Part shown: piece by piece, positions 4,266 to 63,400 of the stretch
How the letters are laid out: each line of letters begins with the position of its first letter
How positions within the stretch are numbered: position 1 is the first letter of the stretch
Origin: Deuterostichococcus epilithicus
Lineage: Eukaryota > Chlorophyta > Trebouxiophyceae > Prasiolales > Stichococcaceae
Assembly (NCBI GenBank): GCA_033439295.1
Contig: JAVTLE010000017.1
Location: 124,001-188,000, forward strand
Reading direction: 5' to 3'
DNA: 64,000 nucleotides
Made by a program: the position numbers and the translations under genes
Notes under the pieces: generated by a model
The model's database searches: none
What the model saw: only the letters and a program-made list of their open reading frames with translations
What the model was told of the DNA's origin: nothing

Positions 4266-7200
4266 ATGCGAACTTGGCGCTGGTGTCTGATTGCAGTCCT
4301 GCTTCCGGGCGCCATCTCAGCCGCTTGCGGTGCAGGTACAAAAGGCAGTATTCCATCGGCCAGTCACGGCTCCATGCGCCGCGGCGCCCCCAGGTCCCTG
4401 CTGCAGCCACCTGATGACGCAGCGCAAATGACACAGCCGGTAGACCCGCTGGCCGGCCTCGACCTCAGCTCGCAGCTGGGCCAGGATAAATTTGTGCTGA
4501 CACAACACCCTGACCCGGGAACCTACCTGGAGATTGGTGCGCACAAGGGCAAGACCCTTTCCAACACCTACATCCTGGACGTCCTGGGCTGGCAAGGTGA
4601 GCTCGCTGCTGCAAACAGAGGACACCTGCGACACTCTGGCGCTTCGCCTGTGGCGCTGCCATGGCGAGGTCTTTGCTGCAGCCTGGCACGTACTGTGTTT
4701 GCGACACAGCCTCGTGTATGAGCTGAACAAACATCACTATGAGGCGCTGATACACCAGCATTCGCCGCCAGGCTTGCGGACACTCGCAAAGCGTGGCTAT
4801 TCAATGAGACTGTACTGGCTGTCATACACAGCCGCCGGTGAATATTTGCGTCGCTGACTGCTCGCCGGAGATCTGCCGGACGCGCTTGCAGTGCTGGAGT
4901 CGCCGTCACATGGCATCTCCACACCGGCACCGACCTGCATGCAGTTGCACCTAGCGGCTTCTAGCAAGAAGTTCCATTTGAGGAATGTTCATGGCGTGGT
5001 GATCTCCTACCACATCCCCTGTTGCTCACTGCAGGCACCTGCGTGGAGCCGTTTCCCCTGGAGTTTGCGGAGAACAACCGCACCTGCAACCTGGTGGAGG
5101 CGGTGGTGTCTGGCGCTAGCGGCCAGGACGTGGTGTTCCTGAAACCCACCGAGCTCAGCCTGGGCGGCATCAACGCCACGCTGTCGGGACGGGACCAGGT
5201 CGAAGGCGCGTACGACAGCGAGTACGTCAGGCTCACCACGGTGGGCCGCCCTCAAGGCCTCTCATGGCTCCGAGCCGCCCAACAGCGTTGCCGTGTGCAC
5301 AACCTCACGTTCACTCGTTCGGATGAGGGGTGAGGAGGGGTGTAGGGGCGGCGGCTGCAGCGGCAGCAGCAGCGGCGGCAGCAGCGGCTGCAGGGTAGCA
5401 GCGGGAGCAGCGGCGGTGAGGGCAGCAGGTGCGGCAGCAAGCGCCGTGGCGGTGGCGGTGGTGAGGGCAGCAGTGGCGGCAGCAAGCGCAGTGGTGGCGA
5501 CGGCACCAGAGGCTACAGCGGCAGCAGCAGTTGTTGTGCGGGGCTGAACCGCGTCTGCTCTGGCGCGCTGGCTGTCCTGCTGTTTGTTTGTGCTCGTTGA
5601 ACCTGGCGCGCACATGAGCAGCCGCAGGCGCATCACGGACTCCAAGGCAGCATTACGCTATGCGCACATTCTGAATGCACAGTGGGAATCCTCCATCATC
5701 CTCCGCCCTCACAGCCCAAATGCAGGTCGGCACCGGGGACCTCCCGGGGCAGCAGCACTTGTGCCTGAGTTTCCGTTCTTTCGTTTTCATCTCTGGCTTT
5801 TGCGTCTCCATGCTGCAGCTACCGCAGTGTGGTGGGCATCGGGGAGCTGCCGGAGCAGCAGTATGTGTTTGAAGGCACTTGATGACAGGACGAATTCGAT
5901 GGATTCGATCACATGAGGTGGGCGTGAGGGCCTGCTGGAGAAGCCGCACGTGTGTTGACCGTGGACCATTGATCTCACGTTCGTCGATACTCGTCTTGGG
6001 GTCTTTTCCATCCTTTCGTGCATCGTCTGATGCTCCAAATCGCAGGTGGGCATCCGGGACCTGCTCGAGCAGCAGGATGTGCCGGCGCATGTCGACTACT
6101 TCAGCCTGGACGCTGAGGGGCAGGCGCGCTCTCAGGGTTTAGAATTTAGGGTCATCATCTCAAGCGGCGACGCTGCGAGGCTCCTGCATCAGAGGACTCG
6201 GGCGAGCCGGCGCTCGCCCCAGGCCGAGCGCCCTGCAGCCCTGTGACCCGGCCCGGCCACAGCGGTGGGGCTTCCCTGTACAAGTCGAACATGTCGCAGC
6301 CGGCCCACGCCTTGTCGTTCTGCAGCTGGTTGGCGCCGGACCGCCGCGGCGGTGAGCGAAGGCGGCTGGCTGCAGTCCGAGTGCTTTGCGCTGCTGCAGC
6401 ACGCTTTCGTCAAGCAGAGGCGCTGGAGCTCCCGCGCCTTTGCCTGCTGACAGTCGAGCACGAGCTGGTGGAGCCGGGTGAACGATCTCACGTCGGCACC
6501 TGTTCAGATGTCAAACTGCTGCAGATCCCCCCATCACAAAGGTCGGCCCCCATACCCTGGTTGGACCACTGTTGCTCACTATCGGCCTGTCACCTGCCCT
6601 TCAGGAGTACACCATCCTGAAGCACTGGCCCTGGTGCTGCCACTCCTTCGGGCTCTTAACGGTCGAGCACAACCTGGTGGAGCCGGAACGGTCGTACATC
6701 CGGGATCTGCTGGAGGCGCATGGCTACGTGTTCCACTCCACCGCCGCCGTCGACGACTGGTGCGCCGCCGCCTCCGGACTCTCCTTCAGAACGGACCTTT
6801 GGCCGAGCCTGGGAGCCGGAAGCGCATGGCGACCGTGAGGACCGCGAGCGCAGTCGATGCTGCTGTGGCTTTCATTCACTGGAGGGAGGAAGCATGCTTT
6901 GAGTCGATTTAAGCGATGCTGGTTGTGCAGCAGCAGGCACGAGGTGCTGGTTACCTGCATCGCACATGCCCCCTGCAGGTACGTGGCTGGGAATGCCACC
7001 ACCGGCTGGGAGCGGGCCGGCGGCGCGGCAGCCGCTCGCTTCAGCAGCAGCTTCAAGGGCGGGCTGGCAGGCGGTCGTTTATGGGGAGTCGCGGCGGTCG
7101 CTGTGGCAACGGTGGTGATCGCAGTGGCGTGGCTGCTGCGCGCACTGCGGGGGTGGCGCGACGGCGGCACCAGTCCACCATCGGCTGGTGGGCAGTATCA

Positions 7201-7279
7201 GAGCCGGACTTCTCACGGGGTCTCAACAACAGCTCAGCCAGCTGCGAAGTGGCTGCCAGAGGTGGCACTGTGCTCATGA
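4266..7279 (+). CDS. FkbM-family methyltransferase, secreted and membrane-anchored
   Basis: Five exons with matching phases give about 356 residues: 4266-4596, 5035-5240, 6046-6123, 6605-6759, 6979-7279 (stop TGA). The start at 4266 gives a hydrophobic signal peptide (MRTWRWCLIAVLLPGAIS). The SAM-binding fold follows: SQLGQDKFVL, GTYLEIGAHKGKTLSNTYIL, CVEPFP, then HVDYFSLDAEG, ILKHWPW, LLTVEHN and DDWYV, all typical of FkbM proteins. The C-terminus has one membrane segment (VAAVAVATVVIAVAWLL) and a short tail, so the catalytic domain should face the secretory lumen. FkbM enzymes methylate hydroxyl groups of sugars and other small molecules; the substrate here is unknown. Exon 3 ends at a CAG|GC donor rather than GT. 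The introns hold decayed copies of exons 3 and 4. Confidence 0.85.
5341..5545. repeat. GGC/GCA-rich simple sequence in FkbM intron 2
   Basis: The stretch is dominated by interrupted GGCAGC, GCGGCA and GTGGCGG units. It stays open in several frames only because of its composition. It lies between exon 2 and exon 3 of the FkbM gene and is best read as low-complexity intron sequence. Confidence 0.6.
5714..5875 (+). repeat. Two decayed copies of the start of FkbM exon 3
   Basis: Exon 3 begins CAG|GTGGGCATCCGGGACCTG at 6043. A copy with the same order (GTCGGCACCGGGGACCTC, then a CAGCAGCA run) starts at about 5714. Another (GTGGGCATCGGGGAGCTG, then GAGCAGCAG) starts at about 5830. The first copy keeps the preceding CAG acceptor. 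Both lose the reading frame soon after the similarity ends, so they are not expected to be used as exons. Confidence 0.7.
6393..6492 (+). repeat. Decayed copy of FkbM exon 4
   Basis: About 97 bases align by eye with exon 4 (from 6605) at the same internal spacing. They include the block encoding LLTVEHNLVEP, which appears here as LLTVEHELVEP. The copy lies about 210 bases upstream of the real exon inside the same intron. The reading is interrupted and no good donor follows. Confidence 0.7.
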
Positions 7280-8182: not shown

Positions 8183-11100
8183 CTAAAACTTCGTGCTGGT
8201 TTCGGTGAGGTCGTCCTGCACAGCTGCGCCGCCAGGCGCCGCCGGCGCGCCGCTGGCAGCAGTCCTCAGAGCATGGTGGCGCGCCACCTCGTCCATGACG
8301 CTCTTCAGCTCGCGGGTGACCGCGTCAACGTTGAGTTTCCCTGCATCCAGCTGTGCTGCCTGCGGGCAGCCGTCAGCTTGGCGGTCACAGGTCATCCACC
8401 GTCACATCAGAGCAGCCCGCCAGGCGCAGCCGTAATGATGCGTTTTTCGGCAACCCAGACTCAACAGTCGCGATCTGAGAGCCCAGCACTAGACGGTACA
8501 GCAGCCGCCATGGGCAGCCGAGCGCTGGTGGCACAAACACTTATGTAGGTGGGCCTGGGTGGTTCACATTTTACGAATTCTTACAAAAAATTTCAAGAAA
8601 CGATCCCTCGAGGCGGGTGCTCACCACGAGTCGGTACAGCAGCCCGCCGTGCGCCGCCAGGCGCTGGTAGTGGTGGTTGCCCGCGTAGCCGGGCACCTGC
8701 ACCTCCAGCAGCGCGCCGCCGCCCGGGGGTAGCGCGCCCACATGCGTCAGCCCCGCGCCGTGCACGCCCGCCAGCACCGTCGCAGACGCCGCCGCCGCCA
8801 GCTGCTCTCTGCAGGGGCAGTAGGCAGGTGCAGGTGAAAAACAGAGGGACAGCCCGAGGTCCGTGCTGTCATGTCGTCGGCCAAAGGCCTTGTGCGCTCT
8901 CGGCAGGCAGCCACGCCGCACACCCGCCGGCACCAGGGAGCATGGTTCTGCACACTGCTGGCTCTAGCGCTGAGGAGAAACCGAGCATCGGCCGTCACAA
9001 TTCTGAGGTGAGGCCCGATGCACGTGCAACCTGCCACGCGCAGGTACGCAGCCATTCGCAAGTCCGCTGCGGCACAAGCACGGGCGTAGGCTTTTCAGGG
9101 GCGAGCAGAGGAAGGTGCATGCACGTGTCAGGTGATACGAAAGCCGTCGACCAATGAAACAACACCTCAGGGCCACCGTGCTGAGCTCCATGGTGCGCAG
9201 CCGGAACAGCAGCCGCCCGGGACGACAGCTTCCCGCTCCCTGCTGCCCGCCGGCGGCGGCGGCCTGGCGCTTGCCGGTGAGAGGCTCGACGCGAGCCTCC
9301 AGGCTGGCGGCTGCCTCCGCCGACAGGAAAGCCTCGTCGTCACCGACGGCGGTGCCATTGTTGGCGGTGTCTGGCGGCAACGGCTCGGTGCCGTGTTTCT
9401 GCAGCAGCCGCCGCCACCGCCTCCGCTGCCGCCATGCTTCCGGAGTGGCCTGCCGCCGCGACTGCTGCCACCGCTGCTGCTGCCGCTGCCGCCAGCTTGC
9501 TGGCCTGTGCAACTGCACTGTCGACCGCGCAGGCTGCCGCCCGCTGGCGGCGCTGNGCACCCGCGCAAGCGCCCGCGCCAGCAGCCGGCGCCCTCCTGCT
9601 GCGCCGCCCTCATCCGCCAGCCGCAGCACGTTCTGTTTCGACAGGACGCAGCTCCGCGCGTTCCACTCCTGCGGCGCTCGTGGCGTGGTTCAGTGTCAGC
9701 GCTGGTCTGAGAGAGGTAAGCGAGTGTTCCGCCTCATGGAGACCGGCCTTTCCCGGCTGACGTGTCGGGTATGTGGTCAGTGGCATGTGAGCGCACTTCG
9801 CTCACTTCGCTCATGGTGTTCACCCTCGGCCGCTGCTGCCGTGGTATGCGAGCGCACTTCACTCACGACGTTTGCACTTGGTCGCAGCTGCCGTCAAGCA
9901 AGCAATCGTGAGATGTTGCTGGCTGTTAGTTCCGGCTCACTCAAGCTGCACTCGCCTCGTTTGCCACCGGTGACGCCTCCAGTGCAGCATCGTGCTTGCT
10001 TCATTTGCCAAGGTATCCATCGCCCATCGTGACGATCAAGGGACTGATACCCATATGAATGTCCCGAGACCCACGTCCACCGCCGCGTATGTGATCGCTA
10101 TCCATATGAATGAGCGGTGTACTGCTGTTGCTCAGCAACTTGTTTGCTACTCTGCAAGTCAAGTGACTGCTGCGCCCACCTGAACGGCTACCATCAAGCC
10201 CGCCTCCAGTGCCGCGTGGTTGTGCACCACACGCCCCGCCTGCCAGCCCGTCAGCGCCGACGGCCGCAGGTGCTCAAACACCGCCCGGCTGATCCACAGC
10301 ACAGTCGCCTCCTCCACCTGTGTGTCGGCGCGCATTGCCGCATTGAGGTTAGGCACCATCGCGCTGAGGGAAGACATGCGAAATGCAGTGCAGCTGCAGA
10401 TGCTCTGACACACAGCGCGGCAGAATCACAGCGGCGCCGCCTCCTCGACCTGCGCGCCCAAGTCCATTGCGCACTTGGTAGTCCCGGGAGAAAACCATGA
10501 TCGAATGTGTAGAGCAGTGCAGCCACATGTGCCGGGAACGTGGCTTGGCTGGTCCAAGGCACGGCTGTTCCCCCCACTTGGATTATGTGAACAAACAAAT
10601 TTGCATCAGGCAGACTGGGCAGCAGTCTTCCTCTTGTGGCAATGCGTCGTCTTCACTGCTGGCTCTATTCAGGGGCGCCCATATCAGTCGCTGTCACGGT
10701 GCTGGTGCACTGCGAAGTCCGAACATCACCTGCTGACATTCAAAGAGTCGTGAGCGCACAGAAGCTTGGGAGAACTACTGCTGAGGCAGGGCCCGGCGAT
10801 AGCCCGGGCAATAAGTGGCGGCTCACCTCCCCATTATCCATGACAGCACCGCCAGAGGTGATGCCGGCGGCGTCCAGAGCCAGCACGTTATCGACTCCTG
10901 GCGGCGGCTGCGGCGGTCCGAACGCAGCGCGCAGCCACAGAGTCAGGGCCTGCACGGATACGTCAGCGGTTTTGGGAGCCGGGATCGACGAGCGTACATC
11001 ATGCAGATGTGTTTATGAAAGGACACCGGCAATGCAGTCTGCAGCTGCTTCGAGGTCAGTGGTTTGACCATGCAGCAGGTCAGCCCGTATGGGTCAGCAT

Positions 11101-31784: not shown

Positions 31785-33463
31785 ATGCCGGACCTCATCA
31801 ATCCTACGCCTGTGGTCTATGACCGCAAGGCCACGCCCGGCAGACCGGTGAGTGGGCCTTGCACATATCTCCTGAACTCACAGCACATTCATAAGCCTCC
31901 AGTGGCAGTCTGGCCTCAGCAGATGCTCTTCTTGCGGCGTATGTATGCAGGCGGATCACCGTCAGCAACACCACAGCCTGCTGTTGCTTTTTCCCCGTTC
32001 ATACCGCATCCAGCAGCTCCGATATCATCGGGCATGCAAGCATAAAGCGCGTTGCGCAGCCTCTCAGTGCCGCACCCTGCGACGCGGGTGTCCACCTGCT
32101 GCGCCTCGCAGGCACGCGCAGAGTGCACGGATGAGGACGCCCGGGAGTCGATCGATGCGTTGGAGATCTTCGAGGTGAGCCGCCGCAGTCGCGGCCAGCT
32201 GTCATCTGCACGCTCCTGTGGGTTCGAGCCGCCAGGGTGCGAGCGCGTTGTAGCGCTCGACAGCGGCAGGATGGGGGCCGGGGCCCCGACACCGCAGCGG
32301 CCTCTGCCTGAGCTGTGCACTCGAGAAGCTCTAGAGATGCCGGTGACCTCAATGGCAGATGTATGTCTGCCAGTTCTTGCAATGTCTATGTTCCGTGGAG
32401 GCCGCTCCTGCCACAACCTGGTTCCGTCAGACACCGCCGGCAGCCCGCAGTGCAGCCAGCACCAGCGGCAGCTCGTTGTCGCCACTAGGCTCCGACAGGA
32501 GCTTGCTGCACCCCCATTCAGAGGGCGCAACAACTTATTGCCCCATCCTGCATCGTGCGAGGTCGAAGCACATGCACACCCTGGTGACGGCAGCGGCACA
32601 TCCTGGAGCCCGTGCGTGACGTTCTACCCTAACAAACAGATGTGAAACTGTGCAGCACATACGCGACATCCAGGATCCGGAGCATCCGTACACCCTGGAG
32701 CAGCTCAACGTGGTGACCGCCGACCTGGTGTCCGTGCAGGATACATCCGGCGGCGTGCAGTGCGTTTCTCGACTCCCTGTTGCAGTCCTGTTGAATGCAC
32801 AGGGGCTGCAGCAGCCTCTGCGTCAGGACTAACCCTCAACCCCGTCTCGGCATGTTGGCCGCTCTGATTGCAGCCCAGTTCACCCCAGCGGCGGTCGGAG
32901 CGGGTGCCAGCAGCTTGGTGCATATTGCCCGTGGCTTCCAGCCGCAGGTGCCCCGGTCAAGAGTTGCAGGCAGTAGCAAGGGTTTCTGGCCTCGAAGCAG
33001 GGGTCCAACAGCAGGGTGAAGCCGCTACATGATGTGATCAAATGCTGCGACTTGCGGACGTGCGGTGCGTGCAGGGTACAGTTCACTCCAACGGTGCAGC
33101 ACTGCAGCATGGCGACGCTCATAGGGCTGTGCATCCGCGTCAAGCTCCTGCGGACGCTGCCGCCGCGCTTCAAGGTGAGCCCTCCGCTCTGCCTGCAGGG
33201 AGCAGTTGCCGTCAGCCTGGGGACCATATCAGCAGCACGGCTCCCATCCAGACTTAGAGCAAGCCCACATGCAATCATTGGTTCCACCAAATCGTCTGCT
33301 GCCCCTGCAGGTGGACATCGCGGTCAGCCCGGGCGGCCACGCCAGCGAGGCGGCCGTCAACAAGCAGCTGAACGACAAGGAGCGCGTCGCAGCGGCACTG
33401 GAGAACCCTAACCTGGCGGGCATGGTGGACCGCTGCCTGGCGGGCACCGCGTCGCCCATGTGA
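31785..33463 (+). CDS. AE7: MIP18-family cytosolic Fe-S cluster assembly protein (AE7/CIAO2B type)
   Basis: Five exons with exact phase agreement, 31785-31847, 32112-32174, 32656-32759, 33075-33174 and 33311-33463, give 160 residues, the normal family length. Family blocks are in order: [62 protein letters not shown] with the conserved reactive Cys, [14 protein letters not shown], and [20 protein letters not shown] near the end. This protein acts in the CIA targeting complex with MMS19 and CIAO1, delivering Fe-S clusters to cytosolic and nuclear enzymes such as DNA polymerases and helicases. All donors are GT and acceptors CAG. Introns 3 and 4 and the 3' flank hold decayed copies of exon 4 and exon 5 edges. 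The gene looks intact. Confidence 0.95.
32862..33240 (+). repeat. Decayed copies of AE7-like exon 4 and exon 5 starts
   Basis: Near 32870 the intron has TGCAGCCCAGTTCACCCCAG, matching the start of exon 4 at 33071 (TGCAGGGTACAGTTCACTCC). Near 33193 CTGCAGGGAGCAGTTGCCG, followed by TCAGCC, matches the start of exon 5 at 33305. Both copies include the CAG acceptor and lie 110-200 bases upstream of the real exon. Confidence 0.6.
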
Positions 33464-33500
33464 TTGGGGCGGGACGTCGATGGCGGCAGGGAGGCGCAGC

Positions 33501-33569
33501 AGCGCTGAAATGCAAAACCCTGACCTGGTGGGCATGGCGGACTGCTGGCTGGCCTGCACCGCATTGCCC
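33501..33569 (+). repeat. Decayed copy of the end of the last AE7-like exon, in the 3' flank
   Basis: This aligns with 33391-33458, 110 bases upstream. Over 54 ungapped bases starting at AACCCT there are 9 differences, three at each codon position, so the copy has drifted as noncoding DNA. It still reads QNPDLVGMADCWLACTALPG beside the real [20 protein letters not shown]. Confidence 0.8.
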
Positions 33570-42736: not shown

Positions 42737-45700
42737 TCAGAAAGAGAGCCTGCGACAGCAGCCGCACCAACCGGCCGTGGCAGGGCAGCTCTGAGACGCA
42801 CGCACCGGCGACAGCGGCGAGACAGACATCGGCACGCGCGCCCCCAGGGTCGGCCAGCCGCCGAGTGTGGTGTTGTCGCCACCGCCCGGAAGAGCGCTCG
42901 ATGCTGGGAGGCTGCCTGGGGTCGGGTAGCCGCCGAAGCCGCCGCCACCGCCTGTGGGGAGGCCGGCGGAGAAGGCTCCAGCGCCAAGGGGCACCTGTGT
43001 GCTCGCCTGCAGGCACGCAGCTTCTGCTTTCAGAATGCAGTTGACTGAAAAACCTCCTGGACGAAGTACAATGGTGAAGCAGCAGCTGACGGCGAGCGCA
43101 CATTGCCGTGGGAAGCACCGGCAGCCGGCAGGCGCCGCAGGGGTGTGCCGTCCTGCAAGGCACGCTGCGCATGCCGGTTCAGGACTGAGCGACCCTAGGG
43201 CACAGGGCCACACATGCGCTGCAGCGTAACTCCGTGCAGGGGCAGGGAGACTTGCAAGGCGTGCACCTGCTGCTGTCCGCGCCCGCCGCGGCCGGAGCCG
43301 CCGCCGGCGGTGTTCCGCCCGGGCGGCAGCGCGGGCGGCGGCGCCGCGGCGGCGGGCGCGGCCTCGCTGGCCGATGGCATCCGTGGGATGCTAGCTGTGC
43401 GCCTGCAGCAGATGTGCATACGCAGGGTTCATATCCACAGCAGCACGATGCAGTGCAGCAAGTTCAGCACTGCACACGGAGATGCTGGTGTCGCGGTTGC
43501 CGTTGCCACCGAGCAAGGCAAACATGGTGGCGAAGCTTCAGAGGCATGACGGGGCTATGTCCCAGCGGAGGGCGTGGCGTCAGCCCCAGCGCATTGGCGG
43601 CCTTGCGGCGGCTGTCGCAGGCATCACTGCTGACACATTTCCTGAAACCCTCAACCTTTACACCCTGGAACAGAGGTCTGCCAAACCCTGGGAAACAGGC
43701 AGCAGAGCGTCCGCTCACGTGGTGTCGTCGGCGGCCATGAGATTGAGCGCAATGGCGACCTTGCGGCGGCTGTTGTAGGTCTCCCCCGCCGGCGACTGGT
43801 AGAAGGCGTCCTTCTGCTGCCGCTCTTTGCCGTGCAGCATGACCGTGCGCGTGCGCACACGCACGCTCCAGCCCGGCTCCAGCGCGCCGCCTGCAAGCAG
43901 GAGGAGTCGCGGAAACGGTCAGGGCCATTTCCAGGAGTGAAATGCGGCATGAGTTACCATGCGATCCAGCCCGGCTCCAGCGTGCCGCCTGCGAGCGGGA
44001 GGAGTTGGGAGACGGTCAGGGCCATTGTTCGGGAGTGGAATGCGGCTTCAGCAACCGTGCGTGCACAAGCGCGCGCTCTGGCCTGCCGCCGGCGCGCCGC
44101 CTGAGGAGGGGAAGATTTGCGAGACTGTCAGAGTTTTTTTGAAGCTGTATGCAAGAAAAGGGAAGGCTGATATGCAGCACCATCGTGCAGGTGTGCACGC
44201 TGCAGCCCAGCGCGAGCGAGTCGCCTGTGTACTGTGTCCGAATTCCATTCTGGAGGACTCCCATGATGACGCACAGCCTGGGAAACCTGCTGGGTTTCCT
44301 ATTGTGCCAACACGGACCCCGCCGGGGGAAAACCCATGACATTTGCTCCTCATTGCAGGACTGTGGCAGGATCCCACGCTTTCCAGGGTCAGACTGGATC
44401 AGAGGTCGACTTGCCCACGGTGTTCCTCAAGTGATTAGCACAGACCAGCAAGGCAACTCTGCTCGACGACGGTATCCAGTATAGCCAACACGAGCCGATT
44501 GTCAGCTCCAGGATCGTCTGCTTCTCACCCTTGTCCTCGACGAATTTGCACAGCTCGGCGAGGTAGTGCTGCTCGATGGCGGTCTGCTGCGGCCGCTGCT
44601 GCCCGCTGCTGCGCCTGCCGCCGACGGCGGCACCGCCGGCCGCAGTGTCACCGCTGCCGCCGCCGCGACGGCCACCGCCACCGCTGCGCGCATTGGTCAG
44701 CGCCTCCGGCGGCGTCCGCGCCTGCATGCAGGGATCACGTCCTGGTTGGAAACGAGACCCCCAGCCGTGATTGAGTCCTCACGATGCCACCCCGACCAGG
44801 CGCTTGCCCGCCCTGGGCCTGGACCTTGCAAAAGGGCCATGTGGCAACGAGTGCCCTGCAGCCGCAATAGGCTGCCGCTGCAGCTGCAGCTGTGGGCCGC
44901 AATCCGATCAGAAAACCTGGTCTGGCTGCGGGCTGATTGCCGCGGTGCATGCCTGGCATCAAGGACACCGACGTGTTCTGTGTCTACCTTTTTGGGCAGG
45001 CTGCCGCCCCAGGCGGCCTCTGGGCCGCCGCTGCCTTCGCCGGCGCTCACGCCGCCGCCGCCGAGCAGCAGCTGCCGTGCCGCTTGGGATGGCTGGCTGA
45101 CGCCCTGGCCGCCGTCGGTGCTCGCGCCGATGCCGCCGCCGAGCAGCAGCTGCCGTGCCGCCTCGGACGGCTGGCCGACGCTGGCGCTCGCGCCGCCGCC
45201 GCCGAGCAGCAGCTGCCGCGCCGCTTCGGAGGGCTGGCCCCCGCCGGCGCCGCCGGATGTGCTGCGCATCGGGTGCCTCGTCTGCTGCGCGTGCGCCTGC
45301 GTCGTTTGCAGCACGCATCGATTGGCCTCTCGTTGCCCACGGGCGCCGACTCCGTCATGTGCGGACGGCGAGCACCGAGTGGCAGGCTCCTGGGCGAGTG
45401 ATGCCCCTCGGGGCGTCGCAAGCTAAGTGGAGCCAGAAGGCTGGGAGGCTGACCGGCGGTGTGACCGGCTGTGCAGAGGCATCTGTGAGGCAGCTCGTGA
45501 ATGCGGCTGCTGACGACCACGGGACCATGCCTGCGGCTCATGATCTTGTCTCCGACTCCTTTGAACCCTGGACATACGATGGGTGTAAACTCTCACCAGC
45601 AGCAGGTGGTGGTGGTGCCTGAGTGCTCCGCTCACGCCAAAGCCGTCGCCACCGCCTGCAGCTCTGCCGCCGCCGATGCCCTTGGCCACAAAGGCGTCCT

Positions 45701-48700
45701 CGGGGTTTAAAGGGAAGCATGGCTGCGCGCCGGGCAGCATCTGCGGCCCCGCAGCTACCGCCGTCGCCGCCGCGCGCGCCTGGAAGTGCGCCGCCGGGTC
45801 CGACTGCGGCGGGAGTGCGCAGCTCAGACGCGCAATCTTGAGATCCGGACCAGATGGTGGTAGCTTGCATCACCAGGGCCAGCTGCTTTGCTCTGGTGAC
45901 CACACTTGACGCAAGATGCGCCATGTGTCAAGCGGACCAGTCAGAGGAGTTGGGAGCTGCCGATCCTACGTGCAGCGGTGGCCGACCATACGTGCAGCGG
46001 CGGCAGTGACACACGATATGCGTCTGCGACCGCCGCCCTTGCAGGCTGCGCTGACACACATGATGTGCTGTCGTGACTGTCGCCCTGGCGGCTCTCCCTG
46101 TGGTACACCCGTAAACCCTAAACCCCTACCTGCGCACGCAGGGACTCGTGGTGCTGGCTGAGCGCCGCTGCGTGCGCCGCCGCCTGCGAGGCGGCATCGG
46201 CGGCCTGCCGGACCCCCAGGGCCCGTGACGCCTTTGCCGCCCACACGTGATCCGGAACCTGCGCATGTGGTTGGGGTTGGGTCTTGGAAGACAAGACACA
46301 AACCACCTTCGGGAGGGCATTGAGAAACGCCTCCATTTCCGCCAGTCGCATGTCAGGGCGTGACCCTCACACACCGTCAGGCACCTGCGTCCATGGCAGC
46401 CGCATGCCCATCGTGCATTCCGGCCTCGAATTGCGAAAAACAAATGGAGAAAACCCAGGCACAGTGCCAAGCACAAACACTCGTGCACACGCAGCATCGT
46501 GGGCAGCATTCGGCCATCAGAAGGCATAACACAGTGACAGCCGCTGCTACATGATCAGCATGCGGGCGGTGCGGAAGTGGTTGGGCAGTGCGGACCCTGG
46601 CTGCCTGCCCAGGAGTGCAAGTTTCGGGTGGGACGACTGATGCGAGGCCGTCAGAAGCGGTACAAGAGTATCTGGCAGCCTCTGCAGGTTTCGAAACGGA
46701 ACAAAACAAAAACAAGCACGCACGCTAGAGGTGCGGATGCGGTTGGGCGCGTCCCCTGAGTGCTGGCCCGGGAACTGCGGCGGCGGGTGGCCAAAGTGCG
46801 GCAGCCCGCCGTCGCCGGTGCTGGGCGTGCGCCCGAGCAGCCGCTCCACCTGCACCGATGTCACAGCTTCTCTTCGAGCTGAGAATGCGATGTCGTGCGT
46901 GCAGCCATGACAGACCGCTTGCATGGGGGCCTACTTGTATGTGCATGTGGGCTGCGTATTCATGGCACGGACAGCTGGCTCCACCAGGCTTGCTTCCAAA
47001 GCCACGCAGACTGGGTCATCGTGGAACGGATGCATTAGGGTGTAAATTTTTTAAAACAACGCACCTCTTCAGAGTGCTGGCTGCGCCTTGCAAAGGGGTT
47101 GCCGTACGCGACGGCCGCCACGTCGACACCGACGCCGCGGAAGCCAGGCTGCGGCAGCGCGGCGCCCGTGTGCTGCGCCGCCGCCGCCGTCGTGCCGGTG
47201 AAGGGGCTGGAAGGGGCGCCCAGGTCGCGCGGCGGTGAGCCCTTCCCGCCGCCGCCGCCTGGGCGCAGCAGCGGGGAGGGGTTCGCGTGAGGCGCGGTCA
47301 CGCAGGGAAAGTGACGGTCGCCTTCATATCCTGCTAGTTCGCGTTTGTGCGGCCCAGAGGCAGGCCTGCAGACACATGCCTCTGCGGCGCACAGGTGCAC
47401 GTCTGGAACGGAGCAGAGCAGCTGCCTGTGTGCCGGCAACGGGATGGTTTGGCGTGCACAGTGCTGCCAGGTACCCAGCGCTTTCGCGGCCTGGGCTGCA
47501 GGCATTTGTCGCCCAGAATGGACAGCAAAGCAGTGGAGAGGCGGCCGACCTGCGCTGCCATTGGGGTCGCCGGAAGCGCCGCCCGAGGCGCCGGCGCCGT
47601 CGTCACTGCCTGGCGACGTGCCGGGCGCGGCCCAGCCCTGTAGACTCGCCATGCTGGTCAGGTTTGCTGCCGCGCTGTCTTGTGCCGCCTGCGACCACCA
47701 CAGAAGCTACATTCCTTGCAGATCCTTTCAAGAGCTGTGCTCTATGCTATGCCCCGCAGCAGTTGTGTGAGCGACATGCACTGGTTCCTGCAGCGCCGTC
47801 ACGCAGTTGGTGCACCACAACTCGTGGAGCAGGCTATGCGAAGAGTGCAGGCGGTGACGGCGGGCGGCGAGTGCCAGCGAGCAGCAGTCCGGGGGCCACG
47901 GCGGCAACGACCCACCCGGTTTGAGGCGGTGGCGGCGGCGGCGGCAAGCGCATCGGCAGAGCTGCCCATGCTGCCAGACGCCCGCGCGAGGCCGGGGCCC
48001 GGCGGCGCGCCGTGCGGCAGCGGCGGCGGGTGCTCCGACAGCGACGTGAAGGGGCTAAGGCCTGGCAGTAGGCGCAGCAGCTCCGCACGGATGTTGGATG
48101 CGCTGCCTAAGTTGAGCCCCGGGTGCTGCAGGTTGGGAAACGGGAGGTCGATAAGAGCGTTTGTGATTCCAGCTTCCAGCTCGGCGCAGTGCTGGTCGTG
48201 TTGCAGGGTGGATGGCAGCAATGCAGCTCATAAGATGCAGGGACAGCAGTGGGCAATGCTCAGCAGCAAGTGAGTCTGCCCCAGTTGACTCAGGTGCAGC
48301 AACAACCCAGTGCGAATGCAGAGTGGCACGTTTTGGCTGTGCCGGCACAGCGGTACCGACGACGCAGGGCAGTTGCAGCAGCAGCCAGCATGCAGCTGCT
48401 GCTGCGGCTGCAGCCACTGGCGGGCCTCCGCTGCCCATTGCCCCTCCGCTGCCCATTCGGCACCGCGCATCCACAGGCCCACGAGTGTCATGCGTGGCGA
48501 GCCCTGGACAACCCACCGCGAGCGAGGCGACCGGGGTGAATGCCGAGCGGGGGGACGACTGCAGGCTGCGCGCTGACTCGCTCTGGTTGGCACTGAGGTT
48601 GGCGCTCAGCAGCGGCGAGCCGCCGGGGGAGACGTCAATGCCGAAGATGCGCTGCAGAAGATGGAGATGGCATCGCGTGGGACATTCTGGTGCCGGCAGA

Positions 48701-52858: not shown

Positions 52859-55800
52859 TCAGACCGTCGCGGTGATGTAGGGGCACAGCCGGTCATGGTC
52901 GCCGCCGGCTGCCATCTCTGCTGAGAAAATCTCGGAAGGCCGCCCTGTGTCTGCCGCCATGCGCGCATACGATGTTATGTTCGGGCGCCCCCAGCCATTG
53001 GCACCAAAGAACTGCAGCGCAGAAGGGCCACAGATGAGCAGAACGAGTGAGGCAGGTATCCGTCACCCTGCACATGCATACCACTCGCGGGAAGGGCGAG
53101 GTTGCATCCAGGGAATCGTGACCTTCTCAGACGACAGGAATTAACCCACCATTCAGTGGATACAGTGCCGAGGAATCTGGCATGCAGCAAACAGTAGGAC
53201 CAGAGTTTCACAGGCGGACCGCCAGGTGCGTTGCCCCGGTGCGGGGTTGGGCTTGCAAAGCCAACGGCAGCTTCCGATGGAGGATTGCAGCGTCACGAGG
53301 CTGCGTGCTGTCGGTGCAGCGCCGCACATCAGTCAAAAGCCCAGGAAGCAGGAAGATTGTGTACCGGCACAGGGTCGGGCTCGCAAAACCATCGGAATGT
53401 GGACTGCAGCGCCGCAAAGCTGCCGGGCTTCGTAGGCCCATCGTCCCGCATCTGGTAGCCCCGCACGAAGGCCTGTGTCAGCAGCGTGCTGCCCGGGGCG
53501 CTTGCCTCTGCAGGGTCGAAAAGACGGCATCGGTCAGCAGGATAATGTGTGTGCAGCACTGAATGACCGGCAGCCGAACGACCGCTGTGAAGCGTGCAAG
53601 GGGCGCTCCCATAGCAGCACTGCAGCGGCGGCGTGGCAGCGGCGGTGGCGGCGTCATCGTCGGCAGAGGCGCAGTGAGGTGATGTGCGGCAGGTCGAGGC
53701 GATGGCCCCGTAGCAAGAGCCATATGCGAGAGCCAGATGCACCCCCCAGAGCAGCCGTGGAGCTCGCTGGCCCAGCCACAGCTTTTGCAGTTGACATGTT
53801 CCAGAGTCCACACCCACCTGAGGTCTCCTGCAGCAGGCCTGCCACCTCGCCCTCGTCCAGGTACATCAACAGCCCCTCCGCAATCCAGACTGTGGGCGCC
53901 TACGGAGGCAGAACGGCATGTCAGAGCGCAACAATTACAAGGGGTGATCTCCCTTCCGGAGGCAATCCTGCACTTGTTCTTTGGCAGCCGTTGAGTGCGC
54001 GGCAACACAGCGGCTCCCTGACCGGCCATCATGACCACCCGCTGGCACACGCGATGCGGCTTCCCAGATGAACAGGTTCAGACCCGGATGGGATGGGTGC
54101 GCCGGCCGACAGGGACACCGAGATGTGCCTCGGTGCCTGGCAACTGGCGCAGCGGCAGCAACGTGCCAAATGGGTGAGCAGTCCAAGGAAGTGGAGAGAC
54201 ACACAGCGTCCAGGCAGAGCTCAAAAACCCGCCTGCGAGTTGAAGCCGGCAGCTTGCAGTTTGGGCAGCCAGCCGCGAGCGCCCAGGTCTACCTCAAGCG
54301 TCGCCCTGCTACCCACTTTGAGCGGGTATCTGCGTGAAAGTCCACAGGCTGCTGAGGCTAGTCTTTGTGACAGCTCATTGGATCGCATCATTGGCACGCA
54401 GCTTGCCAATGGCCACCCAAGTGGACTTCCAGTGGCACGCCATTGGCCGCCGTCTGCACATTGCAACGTCGCGAGTGCATTTCCTCCGTTTGAGGCTGTC
54501 CAAAAGCTGGCGAAGCGCACAGAATCGCAGCAGGGACGAGGTAAAAGACACAGGGCTCCAAGAACGCACGGGCAGGCGCTAGCGCCGTCCGCTTCAGTCT
54601 GCGCGCCCGCGCGCGCCAACGCACGGTGTTTGGCGGCCAGCACATCCGCCTGGTCGATCTCGAACCAGGACACCCCTGCGGATTGGGCGGCAGCGTGCAG
54701 CGATGTTTGGGCATGTGCTGGGTGATGGGTGCTGCAGCATTCATCGCCTCGCCACGCCACAGAGCGGTCTTTGGCTGCCAGCTCGTCCGCCCTGTTGATC
54801 TTGAACCAGGGAATCAAAAACCAGAAATCATGAGCATGTGATCTGCTTGCTTGCTGTGTGCCAGAAAGCTTCTACGGCAACTCTATGCAGCCTGCCATGT
54901 GCGGTCTGTCGTCGTCACCTTTCAGGAAGTCGAGGCGCCAAGCGCGGGTATCCATGCCGGCGCCCAGCAGCACCACCTGCCGCTTCCCGCTTCCGTCGCT
55001 AGGATGCAGCGCGGCAGCCCGCTCCAGGGCCTCCTCCAGCTGGCGGTCGAACCACCAGGTGCGCACCGCCAGACGCCCCGCCAGGTGCTTCCGGTTGTAC
55101 TTCCGTGCCAGCTTCGCCGGCAGCGCGGGCGCTGCTGCGGCCGGCGGCCTGCCGTCTTCTGCCTTGCCATTCTCTTTTGGTGGCTTGCCGTCACCGCCGG
55201 CCGCGGAGGCGGCATGTTGCCCGGCGCGCCCCACGCCCCACATCTGCAGCAGGGTCTAGGGTTCAGGGCACCATACCTGCCGCTCGAGCAGCAGCTCGTG
55301 GGCGGCCATCGTCGGTCCTACGAGCAGCTCCAGCCCACAGCCGGCAGCCTGACAATGTGCACCGCCACGAGCCCAGCAAGCCCTGCATGGCGAGGCAGGC
55401 TGCGCCGCTGCCTAGCCCCGGAGTGCCGGACCCCTCTCGATCGCTCTGAGCATCATCTTGGAGCGCCCAGCCGTCTCAGCAGAGGCAGGCCTTGGCAGAA
55501 TGCTACCTTGGCATACTCGTTGGCCTGGCGCAAAGCATCGGGCCCCGCCAGATGTGCCGCCAGGGGGTCGTCAAACAGGCTGCCCTCCTCCTGCACCTCG
55601 ATCGCCCGCAGCGCTGCGCCCAGGATTAACGATGGTTTCGAAAGGCAACCAAGCACACGCTGATGTGCCGCCCGGTAGCTCGATGATGGCGTGGCAGAGA
55701 TGATGTGAAGCACGGGATGGATGCGCGGATGTCACCGGCGCTGTCATGCCAGAGGCTGGATCGCAGGTACATCCTTCAGAGCAGCGCAGGGTTTGCAAAG

Positions 55801-56967: not shown

Positions 56968-59900
56968 ATGGCAGCCTGGGAGCGCATCAACGGCGTCGTG
57001 TATGGAGTCATCGGCCTGCACCTGTTCATCTACTTTGCCACAGTCTCCTGCGTGGTGCGGCAGTTTGTCATGCTAATGTACGGCCGGCACCACACCTGCA
57101 TCATGCTCTGCGCCTGCGCCGCCGCGCATGCGGCCAAGCTGAGGCAGTGGGCGGACTTCAAGACAGCCTTGTGCCATGACCGGCTGAAGCGTCAGGCGTT
57201 GCCCATCAAGTCAGTGATGTCATTGTCACCACCATCGTTCCATTGTTCCCTCCACGTGCAGATCATTCCGTGGCTCAGCTACTCGGTGCCAGGCCTGGGC
57301 CACCTGCTGGCGCTGTCGGGCACAGTGGCCGCCAGCCTGGCGTGCCTCATCACTGCGGTGGTTTCGGACCCCGGCAGGTGAGCATCATTTTCACTTTTTT
57401 ATGCACCTCTGGCAGTCGCTCACCGCAGCCTGGCGTGCCTCATCACCGCGGCGGTGTGATTCGATCCCGACATGTTTGCATCGGTTTCCACTTGCGGTTG
57501 CTAGTCTTGCAGCGGCTTGCTGCTGCCTAGCATACAGCATGCACGGTGTTGGTGGTCGGCCCCTTCCGGGTTCCACACTGCACGTTCTCGCTGCAAGGCG
57601 TGACGCAGCAAGCCGGCTGTTGGCCCGCCGGCCTCACGGGGGCATATGCACGTTCAGCCTCAAGGATTTTGTGTTTCCCTCGTGAGAAAATCAAGAGTTC
57701 CCAAAGACCAAGACCAGAAAACACCCCCCCAGGAGAGCAGTATCAATTCGAAAGCGCTACCTCGTGCATGGCTAAAACGGTCTTCAATCGTGCCCCAGTG
57801 TGCCGGAAGGTTACACGCCGCGGAGCTGGAGGCGCAGCACTCTGTGGAACATAATCAAGTTTTGGAAGGGCTGTCTCTTGGACGGCCAAGTTGATCGTCA
57901 TATTTCTGCAGTGTGCCGGAGGATTACACGCCGGAGCTGGAGGCGCAGCACTGTGTGGTGGAGGTCAAAAGGAAGGTGCGTCACCAAAGGGTTTAGAGTC
58001 GATTAGGGTGCCCTGCAGAGCCATGAAGCCCACCTCCCACCTGTGCAACTGCGCAGAGAAGCTACTGCATGCTGGTGGGGCCTGCTTCGGCGCTGATGCT
58101 GCTGACATCACCGTGCATGCGCGCTGCAGCGCTCTGGTGACTGGCGCTTTACATGTAGCTACGCCGGCGCCTGTACCTGCGATTCTGTAGAGCGGCAGCC
58201 TGAAGGCTTTTTTTGCGCTTGGCCCTCTCTGTAGAGCGGCGGCGTGAGGGTCTGCCAGAAGTGCGGGCACGGCAAGCCGCCGCGGGCGCACCACTGCCGC
58301 GTCTGCCGCCGCTGCATCCTGCGCATGGTGCGCAAATTCAGAAAGATCAACAGATAAATACAACAACAAAATCCCAGGACTTCTCGCAACAGCACACAGC
58401 TGCTTTGGAACAATTCTAACGCTCTATCCTGTGATGGTCACTACCCAGAACGCTGTTGGGCATCTGCCCGTGGACAACAGGCGCCGTGGCTGAAGCCGCG
58501 TCGGGCATCTAGGCTGTGCGAAGCACTGTCACACCGCTGCTGGCACCCAGTGCGCTCTGGGCGGCAGCACCCCAGTCTTGACGGCCCGCCTGTGGCAGCG
58601 CACTGCGGGCAACATGGCAGTGGCCGGGCGTGCTGTACACAAGTCCTCACCGTTTTCTCGCTGCCGCTGAACTGTCCCCACTGCCCGCGACTCAACGACT
58701 GCGCGAGCCATAGAATTTTGTGTGGAAACTACCTCGCTCACCTTTGAAATTTCGCCTTGTAAGAATACCCAACCACACGCTGTGCTCTCTCATCCACAGG
58801 ACCACCACTGCCCGTGGCTCAATAATTGCGTGGGGCACGGCAACTACCGCGCCTTCCTCCAATTCCTCGCCTACTCGACCGCGGCAACCTGCCACGCGCT
58901 GGGGTTGCTGGCTGCGCATGCGGTGCACGCTGTCGGCGCCGCAACATCGCACCACGTGCTGCGCACCGGCCCGCAGGCCAAGGTGGGACGCCCGCAAACT
59001 GTCCTCCCGACGCCGAGACTCGGAAAGCGGGGAAGTGAGGTCAGTGAGCCAGGATGCCAAGCATTATCGGGGCCTGCTGGCAGCGCACACGCCGCACGCG
59101 TGCAGCGTACCGGCCGGCGGGACGGGGGCAGATTGCCGAGATGCTCAGGGTTTAGGCTTTGAGGTTTCCTCGCAGCCCACAGTTGTTTGCGCCATCTGCG
59201 TCGCAAAAGCCTAATCACATCCTGGCCAGGCTGGTCACTCTCTCCTGGCCACAAGCAGAGAGCTCCAGTGCGGGGCTCCAGCCAACAGTGGGACATGGCA
59301 TGCGCCGATGGTGGGAGGACATGCACAGCTACTGTGCATTCATGCCAAGCTGGTGTCATCAATACACAGTGCTGATGTAGGAAATCGGAACACGTCTGGT
59401 TGAGGCGTGGCCCCTTACGCAGCAGCTTACGCAGATAAGCGCGTTGTGAGTGCAGGCAGCGAGCAGCACTTGCACTTCGCTTGCGCGTCGGCTCGTCAGC
59501 GTGACGATGTTGCTGTGAGGGTCGCCTGCGCATGCACCTGAGCTCAATCGTTGTTGCCTTGAGCTGTCGATGTGAGGGTCGTTCTGCGCTAGGCCGGCGG
59601 CGGCAGCGTCACGTTGGGATGTTGTGCGTATTTGTTTGGTCCTGCTGCTGAACTTGCACAGTATCTCAGCTTGCTGGACGTGTCGACTCACGAGCATTAC
59701 TGAGGCCTCAATCCTCTCCAACTCTCAAATGCTCCAAAATTCATGGGGTTAGCGGGCAATTCGCCAGACACAGCGCTTGCCGGCTGTCTCACTTTCAATG
59801 CGATCGATCAAAGCTGATCTTTGTGTCTCTTTCAGATCAACGGTCAGAGGTGGGCTGCCATGCATGTGCAGTGGGATCAGCGGCACACTCGCCGGGCGCA

Positions 59901-61405
59901 TCTTCCGGCGCTGCACGCCAGAGTTTCGAGGTCCACGCCGGTCGAAAGATCACAACAGTCATCTGGTCACAGGCGGCGGGGTCGGCGGCAACCTCGCCGG
60001 GCGCGGCGCGCCAGGGGGCCATTCCCCAAGCTTGCAAGCCGTTATATCTAAGCCCGCCAGCAGACTTGAAAACCCCCTGCAGACCTGAACAACCGGGCGA
60101 CCCCGGTCCCCGCAGGCGGTGGGGCTGGCGGCCGACTCCCCCGGCGCGGCGCCCGCGGGCTACAGCATCAGCTGGGCGGCGCTGCAGGTCTGTGCGACCG
60201 CGACGGCGCTGCCGCTCGCGATGGCGCTGTGCGGCCTGCTGGCATGGAACGGCTGGCTGCTGAGCCGCAACCTCAGCACCATCGAGTACCATGAGGTAGG
60301 AGCACCTGACAGTGGAACCATGCTGCTTGGGCAGCAAGGTGTGTCACCCATCAGCCTGCCGCCTGCTTCCTGCGCATCGACGCGGGCGAGTCGCACTCTG
60401 GCGCCGGCCGCTGCGGAGCGCCGGCCGCTGCGTGGCGCGCTGCATGGCGTTGCAGCTTGGCGCTAACGCGACGTGCAGCGCCGACACACCGTCGAAAGAC
60501 GTCCATCGCCACGTCCTTTGCCGCTCTGGTCATGAACCAGTGCAGTTGCCTGGCAACCCGCCTGCCTGGCTTCTCCGCAGCGCATCACGGCACAGATCCG
60601 CGCGGCAGCGAGCGGGCGGGCGGACACCAGCGACAAGGTTCTGAACGCAGGCCACACGTGATGTTGCTGCTGCAGTCCCCCAGCCAGCTTTGATCACAGC
60701 AAGGCTGCGGCAAGGCTGCGAAGTATTGTTTCCGCTTCTGCCGCAGGGCGTCACGCAACGGTAGAGATTTGGACGGCGCGCGCCTGCGCCGCTGCAAAGC
60801 GGCACCCCTCAAACGAACATTGTCCCCTCGCCAATGCCGCCGCTCATGGGCCTTGGAATCAGAAGAACTTATGCCTGCCCACTTCTGCCGCAGGGCATCA
60901 CAGCGGAGATTCGGGCGGCACGGGCCGGCGCGGCCGCGGGGCGGCACCCCTACCATCTTGGCCCCCTGGCCAACGTTGCCGCCGTGTGCGGCCCGCTGGG
61001 ACCCGCCTGGTGCCTGCCGCTGGTGCGCACAGAGTTGATCTCCCAAACTCCAATTTACCGGAACAGGAAAGCAAAGACGCCCTTTGCGATCCTTGGCGTC
61101 AACTGCTCCTGGGCAGTGGCGATTGGCGTCTACATAGGCCGGCCACCGCGCATCTGCGGAGCTGTTACCCATGCCACCAGCGCCGCTCGTGGCTCGTGCG
61201 CCGTGTGCGGCTGTCGCCTTGGTGCATGTGGCGCTGCCGCTGCTGCTACTCAGGCCTCGTACACCTGCTGCTGTCGCTGCAAGCTGACGCTCAGCCGCTT
61301 CCCGGGCTGCAGAGTGCCTCGGCGGACGGTCCCGGCACGGCTTTCCCAACCATCTGGGACGAGGACGGGCTGGTAGTGGGCGGCGCCGCCGGCAGACTGG
61401 GCTGA
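56968..61405 (+). CDS. zDHHC protein S-acyltransferase (palmitoyltransferase)
   Basis: Eight exons: 56968 to about 57054, 57262-57377, 57912-57975, 58235-58327, 58800-58982, 60116-60295, 60894-61022, 61313-61405 (TGA); about 314 residues. Two membrane segments come first ([38 protein letters not shown]), then [15 protein letters not shown] (the DPG motif). The cysteine-rich domain is [20 protein letters not shown], and a splice site then joins CILRM to [19 protein letters not shown] with the catalytic Cys. Two more membrane segments follow, then NLSTIEYHE (TTxE-like), [16 protein letters not shown], and a C-terminal [12 protein letters not shown] tail. The enzyme transfers palmitate from acyl-CoA to protein cysteines on Golgi, ER or plasma membrane. 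Exon 4 uses a TAG acceptor. Nearly every intron holds copies of the adjoining exon edge. The first exon's donor is uncertain by one codon. Confidence 0.9.
57426..57860 (+). repeat. Decayed copies of zDHHC exon 2 end and exon 3
   Basis: At 57426 CAGCCTGGCGTGCCTCATCA repeats the end of exon 2 (same 20 bases at 57333), 93 bases further on, with a ruined donor. At 57796 CAGTGTGCCGG, then TTACACGCC..GGAGCTGGAGGC, repeats exon 3 with its acceptor (real at 57909), 113 bases upstream, with a 2-base insertion that breaks the frame. Confidence 0.85.
58185..58742 (+). repeat. Decayed copies of the zDHHC exon 4 and exon 5 starts
   Basis: At 58185 CTGTAGAGCGGC repeats the exon 4 acceptor and start (58229), only 44 bases upstream. 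At 58676-58742 the sequence reads [13 protein letters not shown], then CGNYLAH, a copy of the DHHC exon start ([19 protein letters not shown] at 58800), about 126 bases upstream. The catalytic DHHC is not kept in the copy. Confidence 0.75.
59869..60020 (+). repeat. Two decayed copies of the zDHHC exon 6 start
   Basis: The real start is CAG|GCGGTGGGGCTGGCGGCC at 60113. Copies begin at 59970 (CAGGCGGCGGGGTCGGCGGC, then CTCGCCGGGCGCGGCGCG) and 59869 (CAGTGGGATCAGCGGCACAC, then TCGCCGGGCGCATC). Spacings are 143 and 101 bases. The nearer copy is the better match. Confidence 0.75.
60576..60800 (+). repeat. Two decayed copies of the zDHHC exon 7 start
   Basis: The real start is TTCTGCCGCAG|GGCATCACA at 60884-60902. 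Copies occur at 60744 (TTCTGCCGCAGGGCGTCACG) and 60576 (TTCTCCGCAGCGCATCACGG). Spacings are 148 and 168 bases. Each copy keeps the acceptor. Confidence 0.75.
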
Positions 61406-61468: not shown

Positions 61469-61473
61469 TGTAA
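61469..61473 (+). terminator. Possible TGTAA polyadenylation signal of the zDHHC gene
   Basis: TGTAA lies 64 bases after the stop codon. TGTAA is the usual poly(A) signal of green algae such as Chlamydomonas; its use here is inference. Confidence 0.4.
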
Positions 61474-61982: not shown

Positions 61983-63400
61983 ATGCGCTATGAATGGCAG
62001 CAAGCGGTTTCCGAGGGAGACGTGCCCACCGCTCGGAGCAGCCACAGCGTCGTCGCCGTGAAGGTGCTAGCGGCTTTCATTTCAGCCGTGCAGTGATCTT
62101 GCGCCTTGAAGTTCACATCGCCTGGAATACGTCAGCCATCCAGCAAGGTCGTTGCGGCTCGCCCTGGCCAGAACGCTGATGCAGTCACGAGATCACAAGG
62201 GCATGCATGAGAATCGGTTTGGCTGCAAGCGCCTGCCGATAGCGTCTCCAAATTGTGCAGTTTGCGCCGCGGCAGGTTTCTTCTGGGAGCATGCGGTCAG
62301 CTATGGACAAGCGTGTAGCTCGTGGCGTACGCAACGCACTCTGTACAGCGCGTAGAGAACCTCGGCTAGGGGCCAATGCGCTGCTAGCTGGAAGGGCATT
62401 GGGCATGGATGTGCCCAGCAGCACGCGCACATACGTCCACCGCATGCGCACAGCTCCCGGGACGGCACTCTGCGTTACACGGCCACTCGAACAAGGCAAA
62501 GCTCATCCTTTCAAGGCGTCCTTGCGCCCGTGCAGGATACGATCCTCGTCTTCGGCGGCGAGCACGTGCCGCGCACGCCGCTGCCGAAGGACGTCTTCCG
62601 CTACGATTGCACCGCGCGCCGATGGGAAACGCTCGCGACGTCAGGGCCGGCGCCGTGCGGGCGCGTGGGCCACGCCGCCGCCGCGTCGGATCCGACATGT
62701 ACGTTGTTGGCGGACGTACGGGGAAGGACTTCGGCGACTCCAGCCTGAACGACCTGCACGTCCTGACACCTGCACAGGTCATCACTCCACGTTGACCTTT
62801 CAGAATTTCAGACTTTCGGAAGTTCAAAAGTGATCGATGACACGGAATGTTAGACAGAATGCTCTGCGGACTCCAGCCTCGACGACATGCTACATCCTGG
62901 ACGCGGCGCCAGGTGGGACGCATGGGTTTGCATACATTGGGCCTTCAGTCGTTGATGGGCAGTCTGGCACCCCCCTATCCAATTCCGGAGGGTCTCGGGC
63001 GTTAGGCAAACAGCCTGCGACATGCGGTGCCGGCAGGCTGCTGGTGCAGTGACTGCATTGATGCATGCACGGAAGGTGCCTGGGACGATGCGGAGCGGCC
63101 AGAAAAGCACGGCTTCTGTCCTGCAACTCGCATCGGCCACCCGGACAGCAGGCCACAACCCCTTATTGTGGACGGCTGGAAAGTCCACGACGATCCTCTG
63201 CTTTAGGCGCATGGAGGAAGCTGGAGGCAGCCGGCGACGTGCCGCAGGCGCGCAGCTACCATGCGGCCGCGGCCCTGGGCAGCAGCCTATACGTCTTTGG
63301 CGGCTGCGGCGCCGGCGGCCGCCTGAACGAGCTGCACCGCTACGATCCTGGCGCCAACACCTGGATACGACTGCCTTCCAGTGACAACGTGCCGGTGAAC
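61983..63400 (+). CDS. Kelch-repeat protein (nitrile-specifier/ACBP-like Kelch arrangement)
   Basis: Exons: 61983-62063 (YEWQQAVSEGDVPTARSSHS); 62536 to about 62780 (DTILVFGGEHVPRTPLPKDV, FRYDCTARRWETL, GPAPCGRVGHAAAA, then MYVVGGRTGKDFGDSSLNDL); about 63205-63395 (AWRKLEAAGDVPQARSYHAA, LGSSLYVFGGCGAGGRLNEL, HRYDPGANTW). Each unit has the Kelch GG, Y and W pattern with P-x-AR-S-x-H, so several beta-propeller blades are present. Plant nitrile-specifier proteins share this order, but their catalytic residues cannot be judged here and many Kelch proteins are scaffolds. The frame changes by one base near 62675, inside a run of GCC/GCG, between HAAAA and GSDMYVVGG. Further blades may follow beyond 63400 but are not seen before the window ends. 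Confidence 0.75.
62855..62905 (+). repeat. Decayed copy of the end of Kelch exon 2
   Basis: GCGGACTCCAGCCTCGACGA at about 62866 repeats GGCGACTCCAGCCTGAACGA at 62735, about 130 bases downstream of the real exon edge. The downstream similarity runs through CATCCTGGAC versus CACGTCCTGAC. Confidence 0.6.

Follow-up and report, generated by a model that had tools for sequence, protein, structure and literature searches.

Tandemly duplicated and mutually exclusive exons are recognised by a second exon-like segment in the adjoining intron, and introners by one sequence common to many loci. The decayed copies of exon edges described here, located in a 64,000-nucleotide stretch of the genome of the green alga Deuterostichococcus epilithicus (contig JAVTLE010000017.1, positions 124,001 to 188,000; the whole stretch will be referred to as the window), share with the former the exon-like segment in the adjoining intron, but they are mostly partial exons, out of frame and without coding constraint. 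With introner elements (PMC9860276) they share insertions that alter intron content, whereas each copy is recognised here by its likeness to its own adjoining exon.

Intron gain by tandem genomic duplication is already known. In the AGGT model, as outlined in PMC3443670 with Hellsten 2011 and Gao and Lynch 2009 among its references, a piece of exon is duplicated and turned into a new intron, with a lag between the copies equal to the intron length. Local tandem duplication in genes involving splice-site sequence is common to that model and to our case; here, however, duplication affects the junction of an intron already present, and that intron is lengthened. Small tandem duplications can also result from the fill-in and joining of breaks that have complementary overhangs (PMC8355091, which refers to Vaughn and Bennetzen 2014 for rice). 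Local direct tandem duplication of DNA is again the shared feature, whereas that source concerns short human insertions of <100 bases and also induced breaks, and the duplications described below are mostly old remnants of 75-175 bases that conserved exon edges make legible. No title or abstract opening among the literature matches listed described decayed duplications of junctions as a feature of a whole genome, within a scope that took in only a minority of subscription journals.

Partial copies of exon edges in the adjoining introns

The sample comprised 264 kilobases (kb), the 64-kb window, which lies in contig C15, plus 200 kb from the same genome (46.8 Mb, 21 contigs), with a GC content of 61-63%; the counts below refer to this sample unless the window is named. 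Exons and introns were predicted ab initio, without RNA check, by a self-trained hidden Markov gene model, which converged on 33 gene models and 487 introns with a median length of 256 bases, donors of approximately GTGCGC or GTGAGC and acceptors of TGCAG|G. Some genes are fused in this model and several of the copies are called exons, as can happen with a gene predictor because the copies resemble exons with splice sites.

Ungapped self-comparison of the window yielded 33 matching segments at lags of 25-124 bases and 17 at 125-224 (total 50), against 0, 2, 0 and 2 segments per 100 lags in four distant lag ranges (scaled from 50 lags each). Gapped banded alignment of the 264 kb with simple repeats masked gave 124 pairs with a score of at least 20 at lags of 20-420, whereas three controls with shifted lags gave 6, 4 and 0. 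At scores of 12, 14 and 16, direct matches numbered 284, 148 and 97 near and 86, 17 and 2 far, and inverted matches 162, 22 and 12 near and 116, 23 and 2 far. The repeats are thus mainly on the same strand, as a preliminary description of the window had proposed for the copies, with a small and uneven inverted excess in addition (12 against 2 at score 16).

Each exon edge was compared with its own flanks (up to 400 bases) and with shuffled non-adjacent pairings. Matches with a score of at least 14 were found for 30 of 423 acceptor edges (shuffled, 5/4179) and 24 of 417 donor edges (shuffled, 4/4131), an approximately 59-fold higher rate; at a score of at least 16, 23 acceptor and 15 donor edges remained and both controls were 0. 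Other queries in the same test also matched their own flanks: mid-exon segments in 19/900 cases (controls 2/2646), mid-intron segments in 24/900 (controls 0/2662) and intergenic segments in 2/805 (controls 0/2307). Copies of acceptor edges were situated upstream for 24 of the 30 edges and downstream for 7, those of donor edges downstream for 22 of 24 and upstream for 4, and in 43 of 54 cases (22 acceptor, 21 donor edges) the copy was 83-170 bases away. Among exons 40 or more bases long, approximately 8% of the edges retain a detectable copy (an excess of 68 among 807 edges at lags of 75-175, score 10), and the duplications recur in 18 of the 33 gene models. A chance origin is excluded, and the observation of echoes of exon edges, including the recurrent local duplication and the excess of adjacent over shuffled matches that it implied, is confirmed. 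Of the eight genes originally named, seven (FkbM-like, GT61, AE7, bZIP, MBD, PF04072 and zDHHC) carry copies in the window; for the eighth, the Kelch gene, no copy with a score of at least 20 was found within the span then described, and an acceptor edge at 64113, just beyond the window end, has a copy at 63963-64016.

The anatomy of the units was examined in 74 exon-versus-intron alignments, 52 of which have lags of 83-170, 3 of 52-67 and 19 of 180-375. Fifty-nine of the 74 extend to no more than 12 bases from the splice site, as expected of a unit spanning the site. For exon-intron pairs the lags set in sharply near 83-90, and noncoding repeats are also found at 20-75. Among 29 same-intron copies, the aligned exon part measures 17-66 bases (85 in one), and 28 of them are separated from the exon by a spacer of 45 bases or more. 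Ungapped profiles had hinted at homology ending exactly at the splice site, an idea discarded when gapped alignment found residual intron homology in some copies. The intron part matches better than random pairs (P < 0.05) in 9 of the 29 copies, and the clearest cases (57378 and 57912 in the window, C1 19595 and C5 14383) are homologous on both sides of the splice site by gapped alignment. Since the intron side is homologous too, these represent tandem duplications across the junction, in agreement with the initial view of the copies as partial exons crossing splice sites.

The copies look dead. Differences between exon and copy in 67 duplications are spread almost evenly over codon positions 1, 2 and 3 (0.226, 0.223 and 0.281), and 151 of 186 gaps are not multiples of three (35, 108 and 43 with remainders of 0, 1 and 2, intron parts included), by which coding constraint on the copies was ruled out and the proposed loss of frame borne out. 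The splice dinucleotide is retained as AG in 9 of 14 acceptor copies and as GT in 7 of 15 donor copies; that copies include the acceptor or donor, and that they leave decoy splice sites, therefore applies to about half of them (16/29) and not to the other half. Divergence between exon and copy has a median of 0.22 and is below 0.10 in only 8 of 55 copies, so that the duplications appear to be mostly old, and the measured divergence is probably an underestimate because of detection bias. The introns that harbour a strong copy have a median length of 410 bases (n = 27) and exceed the others (252, n = 460; Mann-Whitney P = 9e-6), consistent with the suggested intron lengthening, although longer introns also give more room for copies.

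Explanations in which the duplicated unit is itself spliced were set aside. A lag equal to intron length, as in intron gain by tandem duplication, is rare (score 10, 2/486 versus 0.9 expected; score 12, 1/486 versus 0.0). Inspection by eye of the edges listed for AG-GT at the duplicated boundary showed many donor edges without AG and few acceptor edges starting with GT. Recursive or same-mRNA splicing of the unit was set aside by the same kind of inspection, many exon ends among the edges listed lacking AG and few exon starts being GT. The fillers are probably not mini-introns either, as judged by eye, since their ends are mostly without AG and those following acceptor copies mostly do not start with GT. 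One pair in C1:500001-540000 (joined coordinates 35875-36022, C1 35968) has a lag of 90 that equals the predicted intron length and might be an intron-gain candidate or a misread donor copy.

General duplication or preference for junctions

The explanation we favour, with a probability of about 0.55, is an old and general wave of short tandem duplications that is visible chiefly where an exon conserves one copy. Duplications of mostly 75-175 bases would have struck the genome largely in the past, landing in introns, across exon-intron junctions and probably also between genes. Where a unit spanned a splice site, the copy belonging to the original exon (upstream donor or downstream acceptor) would presumably have stayed in use, and its counterpart, a mixture of exon and intron sequence, would persist as dead intron DNA and lengthen the intron. 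Exon edges would then be prominent mainly because a functional exon freezes one of the two copies. The duplications, most of them probably old events, might have originated from breaks with long staggered ends that were filled in and then rejoined.

Since the exon side does not evolve, divergence builds up in an exon-intron pair at about half the rate of an intron-intron pair, and this longer visibility may account for most of the edge bias. After masking of the exons, noncoding DNA still gave 250 score-10 matches versus 169.2 expected at lags of 75-175 and no excess at lags of 175-400 (341 versus 356.6). Bases at least 100 from exons, in introns and intergenic DNA, gave a weaker excess of 94 versus 68.7 at score 10 and lags of 75-175; for this interior subset the baseline may be too high, because lags of 175-400 gave 85 versus 109.1. 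Event densities were derived from match counts via simulated detection rates. At an age of 0.30 substitutions per site, they amount to 1.26-1.79 events/kb for edges, 1.09-1.51 for all noncoding DNA and 0.63-1.02 for the interior, edges and noncoding DNA thus being within about twofold; at 0.25 the respective values are 0.88-1.03, 0.32-0.61 and 0.22-0.42, at 0.20 they are 0.68-0.80, 0.12-0.31 and 0.10-0.21, and at 0.35 the noncoding density lies above that of the edges. The threshold spectrum is most self-consistent near 0.30 for noncoding DNA and near 0.20-0.25 for edges. Of the original proposal of a process acting at or across splice sites, the crossing stands, and specific targeting is called into question by the noncoding excess at lags of 75-175 with exons masked. 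The proposed preference for exon boundaries likewise holds for raw counts, in which 51 of 68 duplications with lags of 80-180 overlap a splice site compared to 25.5 expected from random placement, and not for densities at an age of 0.30.

A considerable number of observations weigh against the general wave. The remaining classes of these 68 duplications comprise 11 pairing exon with intron, 4 exon-only, 1 intron-only and 1 intergenic (8.4, 5.6, 20.7 and 7.9 under random placement), and strong intron-only and intergenic duplications are thus far fewer than random placement predicts; a simulation with ages even over 0-0.5 also predicts many visible intron-only duplications. The interior signal amounts to about 3 Poisson standard deviations at score 10, is 34 versus 23.9 at score 11 and is gone at score 12 (10 versus 8.9, bases at least 100 from exons), and intergenic DNA alone gave 36 versus 27.7 at lags of 75-175. 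Interior density equals edge density only if the age is about 0.3; at 0.25 the edge density is approximately 1.6-3 times and at 0.20 approximately 2.6-6 times that of all noncoding DNA, the factor being larger still relative to the interior. A true edge enrichment of two- to sixfold is compatible with these densities. Furthermore, the intron part shows no excess over random pairs (P < 0.05) in 20 of the 29 same-intron copies, for which decay may account, and alignment covers at least 70% of the lag in only 22 of the 68 pairs with lags of 80-180 and at least 50% in 39; decay could explain the remainder. In 11 of the 29 copies, all of which belong to the 12 with the lowest divergence in the exon part, the intron part has diverged further than a neutral simulation based on the exon part predicts. 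This might be explained by the choice of copies according to a well-preserved exon part, provided that they are in truth older; the low divergence of the exon part might alternatively reflect gene conversion with the exon, ascertainment being the simpler explanation. Finally, compared with a random-placement simulation, near-edge cases with lags of 75-200 too rarely have an exon part >72 bases (11/44 versus 49% simulated; binomial P = 0.0012) or an intron part <45 bases (7/44 versus 40%; binomial P = 0.0004). This skew of the units towards short exon and long intron parts is not predicted by random placement.

The skewed anatomy is one of the arguments for a duplication process acting preferentially at exon-intron junctions, for example through splicing-linked breaks, R-loops or exon nucleosomes, and taking up approximately 40-50 exon and at least 45 intron bases. 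We regard such targeting as possible, at clearly lower odds than a general wave. Splice-site overlaps and exon-intron pairs together account for 62 of the 68 duplications with lags of 80-180 (random, ~34), the short-lag repeats (20-80) show no edge preference (9 intron-only, 8 exon-only, 7 edge), and edge density exceeds noncoding density if the events are younger than ~0.3. On the other hand, conservation of one copy prolongs the visibility of edge events, the range of lags recurs in exon-masked DNA, and the densities agree if the events are old. A shade less probable than targeting as such is that junctions are hot spots at which ~40-50 exon and at least 45 intron bases are copied as a unit of ~85-170 bases, lengthening introns and seeding decoy splice sites.

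Random tandem duplication might instead be filtered by selection on splicing, with junction duplications being tolerated only if the copy forms a short pseudo-exon that keeps a distance of ~45 bases or more from the true exon. The rarity of intron parts below 45 bases and, at score 12, the 6 edge copies at lags of 25-75 versus 36 at 100-150 would fit such a filter, which we nevertheless consider unlikely as decoys are not visibly selected against, AG or GT being retained in 16 of 29, and as it cannot by itself lift edges over the intron interior. A function of the copies as alternative exons, or selection for them as decoys, is highly improbable: several copies are called exons by the gene model and their splice sites are often intact, but the near-even codon-position differences and mostly out-of-frame gaps do not fit. 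An assembly artefact, in which two haplotypes or unmerged contig ends were placed in tandem, is equally improbable, although lags of 90-150 resemble short-read lengths and there are a few N positions, because allelic exon copies should vary chiefly at third codon positions and in frame, which the observed copies do not, and because divergence is typically ~0.22.

Whatever their origin, exon conservation makes old tandem duplications countable and provides a handle on intron lengthening, in addition to intron gain. The lack of a noncoding excess beyond a lag of 175 and the small number of young copies suggest a bounded, perhaps past mutational process, which could be dated and compared among algae.

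Copies located in the window and further observations

The copies located in the window are compiled in the table. Among the predicted proteins, LCM/PF04072, DHHC, Kelch and MBD were above the Pfam cut-off and GT61 and bZIP below it, and the assignments to FkbM (E 0.026) and AE7 (FeS_assembly_P, E 0.03) are weak.

Table. Copies of exon edges and related duplications in the window (positions and lags in bases)
Gene or exon	Positions	Strand	Copy	Lag	Identity or score
FkbM-like	5722..6081	+	5725-5755 and 5831-5867, upstream copies of start of exon 6046-6123; both called exons by the gene model	106, 214, 320	0.79-0.86
FkbM-like	6450..6686	+	6450-6477, of 6659-6686 inside exon 6605-6759; called exon	209	0.89
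GT61	8481..8668	-	donor edge of exon 8625-8808	138.5	0.82-0.84
AE7-like	33404..33569	+	end of exon 33311-33459, copied downstream	112	54 bases at 0.83, 84 columns at 0.80
bZIP	41677..41910	-	two extra copies of donor edge of exon 41860-42014, GTG after each; three copies spaced 96 and 84	84, 96, 180	0.86-0.97
bZIP	41994..42165	-	acceptor edge of exon 41860-42014	123.5	0.92
MBD	43588..43779	-	part of exon 43719-43890; match ends 27 bases before donor	158	0.88
MBD region	43864..44061	-	98-base tandem duplication, acceptor side of exon 43719-43890		
Exon 46724-46849	46558..46775	-	donor edge	160.5	0.76; score 23
PF04072 methyltransferase	53236..53455	-	donor edge of exon 53365-53507, weak	125	0.73; score 22
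PF04072 methyltransferase	54624..54810	-	acceptor edge of exon 54570-54675; match ends 6 bases before acceptor	141	0.83
zDHHC	57333..57470	+	donor edge of exon 57262-57377; ~43 intron bases also align	93-95.5	
zDHHC	57735..57959	+	acceptor edge of exon 57912-57975; ~56 intron bases also align; 2-base insertion disrupts frame	111.5-113	0.94 (exon part)
zDHHC	58184..58250	+	acceptor edge of exon 58235-58327, short lag	44	0.87
Exon 59973-60005	59868..60005	+	upstream of acceptor, weak	105	0.81; score 20
Exon 60894-61022	60732..60984	+	acceptor edge	144.5	0.80; score 46

Other repeats were noted as well. A tandem array with a unit of ~63-78 bases in 2-3 copies is situated within a predicted coding exon of the window (45038-45250), and a long degenerate repeat with lags of 125 and 190 (25292-25743), apparently unlike the junction copies in kind, runs through the predicted gene 25186-26328. 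A very recent duplication is represented by the perfect tandem repeat of a 52-base intronic segment in C10:500001-540000 (joined coordinates 16133-16236). The window contains 11 single N bases, for example near 9556, which are probably assembly ambiguities. Intron density in the sample is very high, with 487 introns in 80 kb of predicted coding sequence, and approximately 12% of the predicted introns (54/469) start with GC rather than GT.

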